DNA from: Flavobacterium profundi
GTDB lineage: Bacteria > Bacteroidota > Bacteroidia > Flavobacteriales > Flavobacteriaceae
Reading direction: 5' to 3'
DNA: 64,000 bases
Assembly (NCBI RefSeq): GCF_006491645.1
Contig: NZ_VDCZ01000007.1
Span: 69,015-133,014 of the forward strand
Both the position numbers and the translations under genes were made by a program. The notes under the pieces were generated by a model. The model ran no database searches and was not told the DNA's origin. It saw only the letters and a list, made by a program, of their open reading frames with translations. Position 1 is the stretch's first letter. Each line of letters begins with the position of its first letter. Shown here piece by piece: positions 58,405-64,000 of this stretch.

Positions 58405-59631
58405 ATGAACCGTTTACGTCAAGTCTTATTTTTTTTCTTTCTCTCTTTAGGAGCTTTTGCGCAATTGTCGGAACAAGAGAAGTTAGAACAACGAAAGGAA
58501 GAAATTAATAAAGAAATAGCTGCTTTTAAAGCTTTATTAAAAGTAGAAAACACGAAAGAGAAATCGGTTCTGAATCAAATTGCGGAACAACGCGCTAGAA
58601 TTCGTCTAAGCGAACAATTAATTAGCACTACTTCAAGACAAATGCGATTGCTTGATGATGATATTTATTTGAAGCAATTGGAAATTAACAAACTGAATCG
58701 CGAACTCAAGATTCTGAAAGAAGATTATGCTAAAATGATTGTAAAATCCTATAAAAGCAGAAATGATCAAAGCAGAATCATGTTTGTTTTGTCTTCTCAA
58801 AATTTTTTACAAGCCTATAAACGCATTCAATATATGAAACAATATGCTAGTTTTAGAAAAATGCAAGGAGAAGAAATAGTTGAAAAGCAAGAAAAGTTAA
58901 TTGAGACGAAAAAGAAACAAGAAGCAAGTAAAAAAGAAAAACAAAAAGCATTAGCGGAAAATTTAGCTGAGAAAAAAGAGCTCGAAACACAGAAACAAGA
59001 ACAAGAAAAATTAGCAAAAGAACTTCAAAAGAATAAAAAGAAGTACACCGCAGAAATTGATAAGAAAGAAAGAGAGCGAAAAGAAATTGACCGAAAAATT
59101 AAAAAGTTAATTGCAGATGCCATTGCTGCTGCCAATAAGAAAAATGAAAAGAAAACGGGTGTAAAATCTTCGGGGTCATCTTCTAAATTTGATTTAACTC
59201 CAGAAGGAAAAATCGTTTCTGATAATTTTAAATCTAATAAAGGAAAATTACCTTGGCCTGTAGATAAAGGATATGTACAGCTAAAATATGGTAATTATCA
59301 AGATCCAATTCATAAAAATGTAACCCATTTAAATAGTGGAATTGAAATTGCAGCTTTACCAGGTACTTCTGCAAGAGCAGTTTTTGATGGAGAAGTGTTA
59401 CAGGTGCAAAAAATCAATGGAGATAAAAAAGCAGTATTCGTTAGACATGGTGACTTTATCACGGTTTATCTCAATCTTGAAACGGTAAGTGTATCTGTAG
59501 GTGATAAAATTTCAGTAAAACAAAATCTAGGCAAAATTATTACTGATTCCTCAGGAAAAGCCATTTTGAAATTTATGGTATACCAAAATGCAAATACGTT
59601 AAATCCAGAACAGTGGTTGTCTAATAAATAA
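58405..59631 (+). CDS. EnvC-like murein hydrolase activator with a degenerate LytM (M23) domain
   Basis: This 408-residue periplasmic protein has a signal peptide (ending LGAFAQ), a long coiled coil (about 25-240) and a C-terminal LytM domain (about 285-405), the EnvC layout. EnvC activates amidases during cell separation. The metal site of active M23 peptidases is changed: the HxGxD position reads NSGIEI, and the last His of the HxH motif is replaced in LKFMVY, while VRHGDF keeps one His. It is therefore likely to be an activator rather than a hydrolase. It ends the plus-strand gene run; the small-RNA array begins directly after. Confidence 0.9.
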   Translation: MNRLRQVLFFFFLSLGAFAQLSEQEKLEQRKEEINKEIAAFKALLKVENTKEKSVLNQIAEQRARIRLSEQLISTTSRQMRLLDDDIYLKQLEINKLNRELKILKEDYAKMIVKSYKSRNDQSRIMFVLSSQNFLQAYKRIQYMKQYASFRKMQGEEIVEKQEKLIETKKKQEASKKEKQKALAENLAEKKELETQKQEQEKLAKELQKNKKKYTAEIDKKERERKEIDRKIKKLIADAIAAANKKNEKKTGVKSSGSSSKFDLTPEGKIVSDNFKSNKGKLPWPVDKGYVQLKYGNYQDPIHKNVTHLNSGIEIAALPGTSARAVFDGEVLQVQKINGDKKAVFVRHGDFITVYLNLETVSVSVGDKISVKQNLGKIITDSSGKAILKFMVYQNANTLNPEQWLSNK

Positions 59632-59698
59632 TAAAACTTTAACAAAAACGGCAAAAAAAATGTATCCAAGTTAACAAATTGTAGCCGTATGTTTGTAA

Positions 59699-59767
59699 TG
59701 GTTAATAGCAGTAATTTTTTCTACTCGAGAAAAAGTTTAAACCCGAAGGTTCACTTCGGGTTTTTTT
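59699..59767 (+). ncRNA. Predicted small RNA, unit 1
   Basis: Promoter: TTAACAA 59671-59677, CGTAT 59686-59690, TATGTTTG 59688-59695. The head GTTAATAGCAG starts at 59701. Hairpin 1: TTTTTC 59716-59721 with GAAAAA 59729-59734, loop of 7. Terminator stem CCCGAAG/CTTCGGG 59742-59760, then seven T. Predicted length about 69 nt; the exact start is inferred from the promoter distance. Confidence 0.75.
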
Positions 59768-59863
59768 ATGCTTATAAGTTAAGTGTTTGATGATTTTGAA
59801 ACTTTAACAAAAATGGCAAAAAAAATGTATCCAAGTTAACAAATTGTGGTTGTATGTTTGTAA

Positions 59864-59932
59864 TGGTTAATAGCAGTAATTTTTTCTACTCGAGAAAAAG
59901 TTTAAACCCGAAGGTTCACTTCGGGTTTTTTT
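59864..59932 (+). ncRNA. Predicted small RNA, unit 2
   Basis: Promoter: TTAACAA from 59836, TGTAT, TATGTTTG 59853-59860. Head from 59866. Hairpin and terminator are the same as unit 1; T run 59926-59932. Almost identical to unit 1. Confidence 0.75.
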
Positions 59933-60028
59933 ATGTTTAAACGTTATTTGTTTTAAGGCTTTGAAATTTTAACAAAAACGGCAAAAATACTATATCCAAG
60001 TTAACAAATTGTGGTTGTATGTTTGTAA

Positions 60029-60097
60029 TGGTTAATAGCAGTAATTTTTTCTACTCGAGAAAAAGTTTAAACCCGAAGGTTTACTTCGGGTTTTTTT
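60029..60097 (+). ncRNA. Predicted small RNA, unit 3
   Basis: Promoter: TTAACAA from 60001, TGTAT, TATGTTTG 60018-60025. Head from 60031. The terminator loop has GTTTA instead of GTTCA, a change in the loop only. T run to 60097. Confidence 0.75.
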
Positions 60098-60193
60098 ATG
60101 TTTAAAAGTTATTTATTTTAAGGCTTTGAAATTTTAACAAAAACGGCAAAAATACTATATCCAAGTTAACAAATTGTAGTCGTATGTTTGTAA

Positions 60194-60261
60194 TGGTTAA
60201 TAGCAGTAATTTTTTCTACTCGAGAAAAGTTTAAACCCGAAGGTTCACTTCGGGTTTTTTT
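60194..60261 (+). ncRNA. Predicted small RNA, unit 4
   Basis: Promoter: TTAACAA from 60166, CGTAT, TATGTTTG 60183-60190. Head from 60196. One A is missing after hairpin 1 relative to units 1-3, which would shift any reading frame but leaves hairpin and terminator intact. T run 60255-60261. Confidence 0.75.
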
Positions 60262-60356
60262 ATGTTTAAAAGTTTGTATTTGCTTATTTGTAAATTTTAA
60301 CAAGAAAGGCAGAAATCTTATATCCAAGTTAACAAAATTCAAGCGTATATTTGAAA

Positions 60357-60440
60357 TAGTTAATAGCAGTAAATTTTTCCAAATTAAGGAAAGGGTAAAA
60401 ATTTTAAAGGCCGAATTTCTCATTTTTTCGGCCTTTTTTT
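60357..60440 (+). ncRNA. Predicted small RNA, unit 5 (second hairpin type)
   Basis: Promoter: TTAACAA from 60329, CGTAT, TATATTTG 60346-60353. Head from 60359, without the ATG found in other units. Hairpin 1 is TTTCC (60376-60380) with GGAAA (60388-60392), again a loop of 7. Terminator stem GGCCGAA/TTCGGCC with a different loop, T run 60434-60440. About 84 nt. Confidence 0.75.
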
Positions 60441-60525
60441 ATGCGCAAGAATGAAGCATAAACTTTAACAAGAAAGGCAAAATTATTGTATCCTACTTAA
60501 CAAGATTCAAACGTATATTTGGTGT

Positions 60526-60605
60526 TAGTTAATAGCAGTAAATTTCCAAATTAAGGAAAAAGGGTAAAATTAAAAGGTCGGTTCTATCTCATTCCGACCT
60601 TTTTT
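60526..60605 (+). ncRNA. Predicted small RNA, unit 6 (second hairpin type)
   Basis: Promoter: TTAACAA from 60497, CGTAT, TATATTTG 60514-60521. Head from 60528. Hairpin 1 TTTCC (60543-60547) with GGAAA (60555-60559), loop of 7. Terminator stem GGTCGG/CCGACC, then five T ending at 60605. About 80 nt. Confidence 0.75.
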
Positions 60606-60683
60606 ATGCTAAAAATGTAAATTTTAACAAATTCGGCAAAAAAGTTGTAACCATATTAACAAATCATAGTTGTATATTTGTAA

Positions 60684-60755
60684 TGGTTAATAGCAGTAAT
60701 TTTTTCTACTCGAGAAAAAGTTTGAAAAGCCGGAGCTCATAGACTTCGGCTTTTT
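60684..60755 (+). ncRNA. Predicted small RNA, unit 7
   Basis: Promoter: TTAACAA from 60656, TGTAT, TATATTTG 60673-60680. Head from 60686. Hairpin 1 is the type of units 1-4, but the terminator is unlike all others (AAGCCG/CGGCTT), T run to 60755. It is the most isolated unit and may be the oldest. Confidence 0.75.
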
Positions 60756-60799
60756 GCATTTTATAAAGTGGCTATTCATATAGAAAGCAACGATACACA

Positions 60800-63700
60800 C
60801 TAAGAGATTCCATTCAGTAGTTCTAACGCACGTGTAATGGTTTTTACATTTTCAAAAGTCAATAATAATCGTAAACCACTTTTGGTTTGTTTCTCTTTCA
60901 TTTTGCAAATATTTCCATTTTGTTGTACATATTGTAGTACTTTCATAAAACGATTACTTTGATAAAAATTACTTTGTTGGTCACCAATAAAATAACCAAT
61001 CATCTTTCCTTGTTTTATCACTACTTTTTCAATTCCCATAGCAGTAGCTTTCCATTTTAAACGCACACTGTTTAATAAAGCTACAGCCGGTTTCGGTAAA
61101 GGACCAAAACGATCTATTAACTTTTGTTCGAACAAAACTAAATTTGCCTCGTCTTTTATGAGGTTTAATTCATTATACAAATTCAAACGTTCTGTAATGT
61201 TGTTGATATACTCATCTGGAAAAAGAATCTCAAAATCAGTATCAATTTGAATGTCTTTTACATATTCTTTCGTTTCTACATCATTATCTTCTGGATATAA
61301 CTCCGCAAATTCATTCTCCTTTAACTCTTCTATGGCTTCGTTCATGATTTTCTGATAGGTGTCAAATCCAATTTCATTGATAAAACCACTTTGCTCACCG
61401 CCTAATAAATCACCAGCACCTCTAATTTCCAAATCTTTCATGGCAATATTAAAACCGCTTCCTAACTCACTGAACTGTTCTAAAGCTTGGATTCGTTTTC
61501 TAGCATCATCTGTCATGGCAGTATAAGGTGGTGTAATGAAATAACAAAACGCTTTTTTATTACTTCTTCCTACACGACCTCTCATTTGGTGTAAGTCCGA
61601 TAAACCAAAATTATTGGCATTATTAATGAAAATAGTATTCGCATTGGGAACATCTAAACCGCTTTCAATAATAGTGGTAGCAACTAAAACATCAAATTCA
61701 CCTTCCATAAAGGAAAGCATTAACTCTTCCAGTTTTTTACCATCCATTTGACCATGACCAATACCTACTTTGGCTCCTGGAACCAAACGTTGAATCATTC
61801 CAGCCACTTCTTTGATGTTTTCTATCCGATTATTGATGAAAAACACTTGTCCGCCTCGCTCAATTTCATAAGAAATCCCATCGCGAATTACTTCTTCGTT
61901 AAAAGAAATAACCTGTGTTTCAATTGGATATCGATTGGGTGGCGGCGTGGTAATAACTGATAAATCACGAGCAGCCATCAAAGAAAACTGCAAAGTTCTT
62001 GGTATAGGCGTTGCTGTTAAGGTTAACGTATCTACTGTTTCTGAAATAGTCTTTAATTTGTCTTTTACGTTTACACCAAATTTTTGTTCTTCATCTATAA
62101 TGAGTAAGCCTAAATCTTTAAATTTTACATTTTTATTGACCAATTGATGCGTACCAATAAGAATATCTAAAGTACCTTCTTCTAATTCTTTTAAGGTTTC
62201 TGCCTTTTGTTTGGCGGTTCTGAAACGGTTAAGATACCCTACTTTTACGGGTAAATCTTTTAAACGTTCTGAAAAAGTACGGTAATGTTGGTACGCTAAA
62301 ATAGTAGTAGGAACAAGGACAGCAACTTGCTTGCTGTTGTCTACTGCTTTAAAAGCGGCTCTAATGGCCACTTCTGTTTTACCAAAACCTACATCACCAC
62401 AAACCAAACGATCCATAGGTTTGTCGCTTTCCATGTCCATTTTTACATCATTGGTAGCGGTTACCTGATCGGGTGTATCTTCATATATAAAAGAGCTTTC
62501 TAACTCTTTTTGTAAATAACTATCCGGTGCAAAAGCATAGCCTTTTTCTAATTTTCTTTTGGCATATAACTGAATCAAATTAAAGGCAATATGTTTGACT
62601 CTTGCTTTTGTTTTTTGTTTTAAAGCTTTCCAAGCATTGCTTCCTAATTTGTAAATTTTAGGTGGTGCACCATCTTTACCATTGTATTTTGAAATTTTAT
62701 GCAAGGAGTGAATGCTCACATAAACAATATCATTATCAGCATACACTAATTTTATCGCTTCTTGTTTTTTACCTTCTACATCAATTTTTTGTAAGCCACC
62801 AAATTTTCCAATTCCATGATCAATATGTGTTACATAATCACCTACTGATAATGAGGTTAATTCTTTAAGTGTAATGGTTTGCTTTTTTGAATAACCATTT
62901 TTGATGTTGAACTTATGGTAACGTTCAAAAATTTGATGATCGGTATAACAAGCAATCTGTAACTCTTCATCAATAAATCCTTGGTATAAAGGGAAAACAA
63001 CTGTTTTATATTGCTTTCGAGTTGCTTCATGATGCTCAGAATCAATGTCTTCAAAAATATCGTGAAAACGATTGGCCTGATTTTCATTGGCACAAAATAA
63101 ATAGTTGGCAATATGATGCGCGTGATTATCACTTAGATTGTTTAATAATAAATCAAACTGCTTGTTAAATGAGGGTTGGGGTTGTATATAAAACTCGAAT
63201 GTCTTCGAGGTTTTAAACATGGGTTTTGTATGGAGTTCTACTATAGAGAAGTCCAATGCCTTATGTAAAAACTGTTTTTCATTTAAGAATAATTCTTCAG
63301 GAGTAGCGTGTTTAATATCGCTAGATAATTTATGAAAAGCTTCACTCGCTTTGTCAAACATTTTATTCAATTGTTGTCCTAACAGTTCGGTATTTTGTAT
63401 AAATAAAACGGTTTTTTCATTGATGTATTCTAGAAAACTTTCTCTGCTTTCTTGCAATAGTTTGTTTTCTACATTGGGAATAATACTAATCTTTTTTAGC
63501 TTTTCTACAGATAATTGCGTTTCTACATCAAAACTACGAATGCTGTCTACTTCATTGCCAAAAAACTCAATACGATACGGATGATCGTTAGAGAATGAAA
63601 AGACATCGACAATTCCTCCGCGAACTGAAAACTCTCCTGGTTCGGTTACAAAATCTACGCGTTTAAAATTATATTCAAAAAGGGTTTCATTGATGAAATC

Positions 63701-64000
63701 GATAGAAACTTTATCGGAAACACTTAATTTTAAAGTGTTTTTTTCAAGTTCTCTTCGGGTAACTACTTTTTCAAAAATAGCATCTACATAAGAAACAATA
63801 AGGGCTGGTTTTTTGCGAGAGTTAATTCGATTGAGAACTTCAGCTCGTAATAGAATGTTGGCGTTATCGGTTTCTTCAATTTGATAAGGCCTTCTATAAG
63901 AACCTGGATAGAATAAGACATCTTGGTCGTTAATTAAATGCTCTAAGTCATTTAAATAATACGCAGCTTCTTCTTTATCATTAAATAAGAGTAAAAAGGG
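60800..64000 (-). CDS. mfd: Transcription-repair coupling factor Mfd, 5' end cut by the window
   Basis: Mfd removes RNA polymerase stalled at DNA damage and recruits UvrA. The frame is open without a stop from 60800 to the window edge, giving 1066 residues; full-length Mfd is usually about 1100-1150, so only a short N-terminal part is missing. Seen domains: the UvrB-homology region (PYQIEETDN near the visible start; VTEPGEFSVRGGIVDVF), the CarD-like RID (GDYVTHIDHGIGKFGGL), helicase motifs (CGDVGFGKTEVAIRAA, DEEQKFGV, TATPIPRTL, MRGRVGRS) and the C-terminal regulatory domain. A TTG at 63457 is not the start; coding sequence typical of Mfd continues past it. Confidence 0.96.
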   Translation of the reverse strand, partial: PFLLLFNDKEEAAYYLNDLEHLINDQDVLFYPGSYRRPYQIEETDNANILLRAEVLNRINSRKKPALIVSYVDAIFEKVVTRRELEKNTLKLSVSDKVSIDFINETLFEYNFKRVDFVTEPGEFSVRGGIVDVFSFSNDHPYRIEFFGNEVDSIRSFDVETQLSVEKLKKISIIPNVENKLLQESRESFLEYINEKTVLFIQNTELLGQQLNKMFDKASEAFHKLSSDIKHATPEELFLNEKQFLHKALDFSIVELHTKPMFKTSKTFEFYIQPQPSFNKQFDLLLNNLSDNHAHHIANYLFCANENQANRFHDIFEDIDSEHHEATRKQYKTVVFPLYQGFIDEELQIACYTDHQIFERYHKFNIKNGYSKKQTITLKELTSLSVGDYVTHIDHGIGKFGGLQKIDVEGKKQEAIKLVYADNDIVYVSIHSLHKISKYNGKDGAPPKIYKLGSNAWKALKQKTKARVKHIAFNLIQLYAKRKLEKGYAFAPDSYLQKELESSFIYEDTPDQVTATNDVKMDMESDKPMDRLVCGDVGFGKTEVAIRAAFKAVDNSKQVAVLVPTTILAYQHYRTFSERLKDLPVKVGYLNRFRTAKQKAETLKELEEGTLDILIGTHQLVNKNVKFKDLGLLIIDEEQKFGVNVKDKLKTISETVDTLTLTATPIPRTLQFSLMAARDLSVITTPPPNRYPIETQVISFNEEVIRDGISYEIERGGQVFFINNRIENIKEVAGMIQRLVPGAKVGIGHGQMDGKKLEELMLSFMEGEFDVLVATTIIESGLDVPNANTIFINNANNFGLSDLHQMRGRVGRSNKKAFCYFITPPYTAMTDDARKRIQALEQFSELGSGFNIAMKDLEIRGAGDLLGGEQSGFINEIGFDTYQKIMNEAIEELKENEFAELYPEDNDVETKEYVKDIQIDTDFEILFPDEYINNITERLNLYNELNLIKDEANLVLFEQKLIDRFGPLPKPAVALLNSVRLKWKATAMGIEKVVIKQGKMIGYFIGDQQSNFYQSNRFMKVLQYVQQNGNICKMKEKQTKSGLRLLLTFENVKTITRALELLNGIS

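Follow-up and report, generated by a model that had tools for sequence, protein, structure and literature searches.

Between envC and mfd, Flavobacterium profundi appears to carry seven independent genes for one family of base-pairing small RNAs (sRNAs), activated by a response regulator and repressing, without Hfq, the mRNAs of secreted proteins of the 'QVGIGTT' family. We hold this combined proposal to be probable, short of established. The repeated units, their conservation, the promoter element that they share with a two-component operon, and the complementary sites in candidate mRNAs can all be read directly from the DNA.

Organization of the array

The window (the whole stretch of DNA analyzed, 64 kb) contains seven head-to-tail units of 159 to 168 bp each at 59636-60760, with spacings of 165, 165, 165, 163, 168, and 159 bp along the array (Table 1). 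Every unit has the same order of parts. An upstream element, aligned as TTTAACAA with a second TTAACAA box 32 bp on, is followed by a TAnnTTTG promoter (TATGTTTG or TATATTTG), the head GTTAATAGCAGTAA, a hairpin, and a terminator. The head is the same in all seven units and has no other site in the 4.01-Mb assembly; units 1 to 4 are highly alike across most of their length. The earlier note had described seven tandem units between an EnvC-like gene and mfd, each with an invariant head. Spacings, open reading frames (ORFs), and Pfam confirm the arrangement, and the head is indeed identical throughout and unique to the array. The note's two TTAACAA boxes exactly 32 bp apart are present in all seven units of an ungapped alignment, but the second box is not conserved beyond close relatives. 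What is conserved outside close relatives is TTTAACAA together with an inverted repeat, TACAG-N5-CTGTA, rather than the second TTAACAA box.

Table 1. Coordinates of the array, its flanking genes, and related features (window positions unless a contig or locus is given)
Feature	Position	Strand	Basis
EnvC-like M23 peptidase gene (left flank, outside the system)	58405..59631	+	ORF; Pfam PF01551, E 1.2e-14
mfd (right flank, convergent, outside the system, runs off the window)	60800..64000	-	ORF
Unit 1 regulator element, TTTAACAA...GGCA...TGTA, about -62 to -35	59638..59665	+	Operon-promoter matrix, top 7
Unit 1 -7 box, TATGTTTG	59688..59695	+	Alignment
Unit 1 predicted sRNA, type A	59700..59767	+	+1 inferred from -7 box at -12..-5
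Unit 1 sRNA parts: head, hairpin, terminator plus T-run	Head 59701-59714; terminator 59739-59763	+	
Unit 2 regulator element	59803..59830	+	Operon-promoter matrix
Unit 2 predicted sRNA, type A	59865..59932	+	-7 box 59853-59860
Unit 3 regulator element	59968..59995	+	Operon-promoter matrix
Unit 3 predicted sRNA, type A	60030..60097	+	-7 box 60018-60025
Unit 4 regulator element	60133..60160	+	Operon-promoter matrix
Unit 4 predicted sRNA, type A	60195..60261	+	-7 box 60183-60190
Unit 5 regulator element	60296..60323	+	Operon-promoter matrix
Unit 5 predicted sRNA, type B	60358..60440	+	-7 box 60346-60353
Type B features (unit 5): CC..GG hairpin, GGGTAAAA, CTCAT terminator loop			
Unit 6 regulator element	60464..60491	+	Operon-promoter matrix
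Unit 6 predicted sRNA, type B	60526..60605	+	-7 box 60514-60521
Unit 7 regulator element (best match to operon promoters)	60623..60650	+	Operon-promoter matrix
Unit 7 predicted sRNA, type A	60685..60755	+	-7 box 60673-60680
M48-peptidase gene in the J27 array and counterpart place in the F. jejuense array	L186 1606-3690 and L183 175-2260		
Two best target genes	G000:C4:299645-300319 and G000:C6:2673		

Predicted promoters, RNA starts, and terminators

F. psychrophilum and F. johnsoniae rely mainly on a TAnnTTTG promoter located at -12 to -5 (PMC9723704, PMC6847099). A box of this type is found in all seven units, in support of the earlier claim that each unit has its own promoter, whereas a sigma-70 promoter scan did not find the array promoters, because Bacteroidota use TAnnTTTG. 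The -7 box of units 1 to 4 is TATGTTTG, with a G at -9. A G at this position is rare, almost absent, in F. johnsoniae promoters (PMC6847099), and these four promoters may therefore be weak without an activator. As placed by the -7 box, the +1 of units 1 to 5 and 7 is the base directly 5' of GTTAATAGC, and that of unit 6 is two bases 5' of it. The box thus puts +1 at the head, indicating that the invariant head is the 5' end of predicted RNAs of about 67 to 83 nt, starting at GGTTAATAG.

Each of the seven predicted RNAs is more stably folded than its shuffled versions (z of -2.4 to -4.4), with the head predicted mostly unpaired at nt 1 to 12. Because the three body types do not align with one another, RNAalifold found no consensus pairing in the pooled alignment, and the units were folded singly instead. 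The 7-base-loop hairpin previously assigned to every unit was recovered in units 5 and 6 only; the loop of units 1 to 4 and 7 has five bases. The intrinsic terminators fared better. A terminator scan gave 9 sites where shuffled sequence would give 0.7; five of the 9 are on the + strand, and folding supplied the longer-loop hairpins by which units 5 and 6, absent from the scan list, terminate, so that a terminator is predicted for each unit.

The bases around +1 also bear on whether the units could encode short peptides. In unit 1, an ATG that overlaps +1 could open a reading frame, but this ATG is not conserved (ATG, TTG, ACG, TCG, ATA, and CAG all occur before the head) and the changing bodies break the frame. 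We give coding almost no credence and, without a conserved start, ruled it out.

Homologous units in other Flavobacterium genomes

A covariance model of promoter plus RNA was searched against 300 genomes of the genus, and full units were found in eight, which form one group only. A second search, in which 84,980 named species were scanned for the pattern, returned as carriers F. jejuense EC11, F. haoranii (a metagenome-assembled genome [MAG]), Flavobacterium sp. J27, 9AF, and NRK F7, and three MAGs. The search for homologous arrays, a check named beforehand, was therefore positive in several Flavobacterium species. In total there are 51 distinct units, 49 of which have an identical 14-base head. 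Their bodies fall into three types, of which type C marks the clade of F. haoranii and G171, and the terminator stems vary in sequence yet still fold.

The array lies at envC-mfd in F. profundi, J27, and 9AF and adjoins envC or mfd in F. jejuense, NRK F7, G149, and G233, with the unit order A..A-B-B-A(..) wherever it is complete enough. G171 has nine to ten dispersed copies away from envC. The G233 array (L054 4373-9473) holds a complete rRNA operon (16S, tRNA-Ile, tRNA-Ala, 23S, and 5S), and that of J27 has an M48-peptidase gene inside (Pfam-checked in J27 only); at the same place in F. jejuense there are two ORFs, the first similar to the J27 gene.

These comparisons weigh on the possibility that a terminator or attenuator repeat at the envC 3' end has merely been duplicated in tandem and yields no transcripts of its own. 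Repeats are commonly situated at convergent genes and terminators, and units 1 to 4 are near-alike, as if recently duplicated. However, single copies are dispersed away from envC, and the array persists across species despite an inserted rRNA operon or peptidase gene. The head, element, and -7 box are strictly kept while the rest drifts, which argues against a passive repeat, and we consider this origin very improbable. Dispersed copies, the invariant head, and changing terminators favor independent sRNA genes, as had been claimed from the first inspection, although at the level of sequence, with transcription inferred.

Several matches were set aside as chance. The five exact-head matches in other genomes (61 genus genomes; two in G004 and one each in G016, G047, and G060) have no element or promoter, and four scan matches outside Flavobacterium (Saprospiraceae, Clostridiales, Eubacterium, and Prevotellaceae) lie in or beside genes without the element. 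As separate observations, an M48-peptidase-like gene lies beside the sRNAs of G171, and a Flavo-1 RNA (RF01705, 74 bits) is present in NRK F7 at L051 3669-3749, 0.3 to 0.4 kb from the array remnant and on the opposite strand.

A two-component operon with the same promoter element

A DNA search of the F. profundi genome with one unit gave one extra significant place, G000:C19:3669, which matches the upstream part only. The element there is TTTAACAAAATCGGCAGAAAACTTGTAA, and its spacing to the TAnnTTTG box is nearly equal (57 versus 58 nt overall). Behind it, outside the window, lies an operon that encodes small lipoproteins together with a histidine kinase with TPR repeats and a response regulator (G000:C19:3675-8250; L063 676-5253). 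The operon starts with seven genes for lipoprotein-like peptides of about 57 aa ending in DPIIIPKKD, followed by one further small gene. The kinase has a lipobox, TPR repeats, and HisKA_3/HATPase, and the response regulator has a receiver domain and NarL-type matches. The order of peptide(s), kinase, and regulator recurs in nearly all genus genomes inspected, with the sRNA present or absent.

The element with its TTTAACAA half precedes the operon in 13 of the 15 promoters read. Its core is an inverted repeat of which both sides covary (TACAG..CTGTA and TACGG..CCGTA, with GGCAG..CTTGTA in the F. profundi clade), and the sRNA promoters match the operon of their own genome, GGCA with GGCA and TACA with TACA. 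A matrix was built from the 13 operon promoters, with no sRNA promoter included. In the window, on both strands, the seven units took ranks 1 to 7 with scores of 15.0 to 29.8, the next score being 14.2. When the F. profundi clade was left out of the matrix, four units ranked 1 to 4 and two more ranked 7 and 11. Over 3.3 million positions of the genome, a score above 12 combined with a -7 box at an offset of 21 to 22 was found only at the operon promoter and the seven units. Among the 300 genomes, the eight that carry the sRNA are those with the eight regulators closest to that of F. profundi, a co-occurrence that may in part reflect the common ancestry of one clade. Direct regulation of the sRNA promoters by the operon's response regulator is the best reading of these data, with binding inferred. 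The regulator would activate each of the seven copies, whose RNAs would accumulate additively, and would also control its own operon promoter via the same element, about 36 to 62 bp upstream of +1.

The TPR part of the kinase, behind the lipobox, is presumably periplasmic. The small lipoproteins are a possible ligand of this kinase; being co-encoded, they are the obvious candidates for ligands or modulators, a speculative assignment. A wider scheme is conceivable in which the lipoproteins (C termini ..DPIIIPKKD, in five to seven tandem copies in the clade) act as periplasmic or shared TPR ligands, and peptide copy number, kinase, regulator, and the multicopy sRNA array form a Qrr-like envelope or cell-to-cell circuit choosing which surface proteins are displayed. 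We regard this scheme as doubtful on present evidence; if true, it would be the first peptide-sensor-sRNA cascade in Bacteroidota.

Further features were seen at this and similar operons. Tandem near-identical lipoprotein-like peptides of 50 to 90 aa, ending in DPIIIPKKD or DPIVKPKRD, also stand before the kinase at L122, L125, and L126, and the peptide genes are single and diverged in other Flavobacterium species. An 18-bp inverted repeat, TGTAACACCTTATTTTTG..CAAAAATAAGGTGTTACA, lies over the operon -7 box in four genomes (L063 at about 715-756, L122, L125, and L126) and could serve as another operator or form a hairpin at the mRNA 5' end. In G171 (L128 4077-7713, L131 1667-5309, and L134 2045-5282), the regulator element precedes repeated operons beside sRNA copies. 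These encode a lipoprotein with a constant N terminus and a variable C terminus, then DUF6705-like or similar small secreted proteins, and resemble a locus for polymorphic toxins or competition that belongs to the same regulon. At G000:C1:294457-295260, a perfect TTACAGAAAAACTGTAA site precedes a two-gene operon (107 and 124 aa; possibly Roadblock/LC7-like), with ACTATTAACC directly before the ATG of the second gene; this operon is possibly a further regulon member and target. Another gene for a secreted protein of the QVGIN family has a regulator-like site (G000:C15:80167-80194; L332 10167) about 80 nt ahead of it.

Candidate mRNA targets

GUUAAUAGC, at the 5' end of the sRNA, has its complement in GCUAUUAAC. 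Searching near ATG codons for part of the head complement gave T1, a gene for a 225-aa secreted protein with the leader GCTATTAACATTTTACTGCT-ATG, whose orthologues in NRK F7, J27, and F. jejuense retain GCTATTAAC. A tandem-site search gave T3, which encodes a secreted protein of 461 aa bearing YadA-head repeats (Pfam E 1.1e-21) and was found in four species (F. profundi, NRK F7, J27, and 9AF). The T3 sites are at the mRNA start and at codons 5 to 7, and the second site of T1 lies over the start codon. The tandem-site search had 1 match in 11 genomes without the sRNA, not at a start, versus 10 in 11 carriers. Some of the ten fall within coding sequence, and coding-region sites (Met-Leu-Leu-Thr codons) could be by-products of coding or of signal-peptide codons.

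In all eight promoters of T1 and T3, GCTATTAAC starts exactly at the +1 predicted from the -7 box. The nonamer is invariant across the eight, and the four bases before +1 differ between T1 and T3 and partly between species (cact, catc, and cagt; tgcc, tgtc, and tatc). We searched 1.66 Mb of the F. profundi genome (41%, 1426 ORFs) for start-proximal sites. GCTATTAAC was found near the start of only three genes, all of them in the '[AS]Q[VI]GI[GN]' ('QVGIGTT') secreted family, of which the searched 41% has about eight members; the chance of three of three is about 1e-7. TAnnTTTG together with GCTATTAAC occurred twice in the searched DNA, whereas about 500 permuted nonamers gave a mean of 0.05 and never more than 1. 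The site is also present once or twice in leaders of family members in G233 and G149 and of one F. jejuense secreted protein. These complements of the head at the starts of conserved secreted-protein genes support the earlier suggestion that the single-stranded head is a seed for pairing with mRNAs.

The target evidence comes from 41% of the genome and concerns only the type A/B clade and a single protein family. Duplex energies relative to shuffled leaders were strong in six of eight leaders only. Enrichment of 8-mers at starts was weak genome-wide, with the signal restricted to the nonamer GCTATTAAC and one protein family; a 14-mer antisense search allowing 2 mismatches was too noisy, and no targets were found in the type C clade (F. 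haoranii and G171). ACTGCTATT also occurs in the leader of a gene for 490 aa, which only two close relatives share.

T1 and T3 are distant paralogues, and their shared start could be partly inherited. This relationship, and the position of the motif exactly at +1, where the initial transcribed sequence can matter, would also suit an element that acts in DNA or in initiation and has nothing to do with the sRNAs, whose targets would then be others. Against it, the match takes in the whole exposed 5' nonamer. Second sites past (T3) or over (T1) the start codon are typical of RNA pairing, not of promoter elements, and similar family leaders in G233 and G149 have the site away from +1. We consider this explanation unlikely, with some weight left to it. 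Transcribed RNAs that bind a protein, as a CsrB-like or 6S-like sponge with the head as protein site, are less likely still. An invariant head (49/51) and many copies suit protein titration, and RsmX-type sRNAs are likewise multicopy and two-component controlled (PMC4132741). However, each RNA has a single copy of the motif, and a sponge does not predict an exact head complement at +1 of conserved mRNAs in several species.

We therefore retain pairing with mRNAs as our working model, in which four points are inferred, without RNA data: that the units are transcribed, that the regulator binds, that the RNAs pair in the cell, and that the effect is repression. The exposed 5' end GUUAAUAGC(AGUAA) would pair with GCUAUUAAC and UUACUGCUAU in 20- to 24-nt leaders and first codons, engaging the first nine nucleotides of the leader and a second site at or just past the start codon. 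Pairing would cover the ribosome footprint and lower the translation of surface proteins, one of them with YadA-head repeats. Bacteroidetes mRNAs are without Shine-Dalgarno sequences (PMC6847099), and Hfq (PF17209) was not detected in the F. profundi genome. With neither a Shine-Dalgarno sequence nor a detectable Hfq, pairing would act by direct occlusion.

Relation to known small RNAs

No Rfam family reached its gathering score in the window, and no LhrC match was among the lax-threshold hits; this check of the units had been named beforehand. The anti-hemB family (RF02837) was rejected, as its best score was 29.4 bits against a gathering score of 49.5 and reflected mostly terminator shape. 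Flavo-1 (RF01705), likewise a flavobacterial structured sRNA, did not match the units at any threshold tried. Our literature searches found no description of the family. The general features of sibling sRNAs are met, namely, several copies with their own promoter and terminator and a conserved accessible seed complementary to conserved mRNA sites. Homologous arrays and an element in common with a two-component operon support the multicopy regulatory RNA family envisaged in the earlier note.

LhrC1-5 of Listeria monocytogenes are near-identical copies with their own promoters, depend on LisRK, and repress the mRNA of the adhesin LapB without a need for Hfq (PMC4132741). The array is predicted to resemble them in its multiple copies with own promoters, two-component link, surface-protein target, and independence from Hfq; for control by a two-component system, the evidence is the promoter element in common with such an operon, with binding inferred. 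In contrast, LhrC pairs through three redundant CU-rich motifs rather than the 5' end, its sequence and phylum are different, and the input predicted for the array is a TPR lipoprotein kinase encoded together with small lipoproteins. By Rfam, the units do not meet the LhrC sequence and structure definition.

OmrA and OmrB of enterobacteria are tandem siblings of 82 to 88 nt with near-identical 5' ends and diverged middles, controlled by EnvZ-OmpR, and their 5' end pairs with envelope-protein mRNAs (PMC4211561). Tandem sibling sRNAs, a conserved pairing 5' end, and two-component control are the predicted likenesses. However, OmrA and OmrB are two copies, Hfq dependent, and unrelated in sequence, and pairing at the mRNA +1 is not described for them. 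The array has no Rfam match to them, and its genome has no PF17209 Hfq. The Qrr RNAs of Vibrio have four to five redundant copies, one phosphorylated response regulator, and an invariant core (PMC4211561), a plan similar to redundant array copies under one predicted activating response regulator. In contrast, Qrr genes are dispersed, respond to the quorum-sensing LuxO, and have a 32-nt core, and there is no evidence that the array input is cell density. Qrr membership is also not met by sequence, with no Rfam match and a sigma-A-type TAnnTTTG promoter in the array. Rfp18 of Flavobacterium psychrophilum is a trans-acting sRNA affecting secreted proteins (PMC9723704), similar in genus and in its secreted-protein link. 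It is widely conserved in the genus, compared with 8 of 300 genomes for the array family, and its predicted pairing is via the third stem-loop rather than the 5' end.

By sequence comparison, the array family is separate from LhrC, OmrA/B, and other Rfam families. The family, its phylum context, the predicted type of regulator, and the predicted pairing at the mRNA +1 are new.

Biological implications

To our knowledge, flavobacterial post-transcriptional regulation is almost unexplored. The sequence evidence suggests that Bacteroidota have, in this array, a counterpart to the multicopy regulatory RNAs of Listeria and E. coli. It offers a ready-made case, with a predicted regulator, seed, and target sites that can be tested in one strain, and as a naturally amplified seven-copy array it suits the question of why sRNAs multiply. 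Pairing at the first nucleotides of 20-nt leaders suggests a block of initiation where there is no Shine-Dalgarno sequence to cover. Through the predicted circuit, the control of surface proteins is connected to an orphan two-component operon that encodes small lipoproteins and occurs genus-wide.
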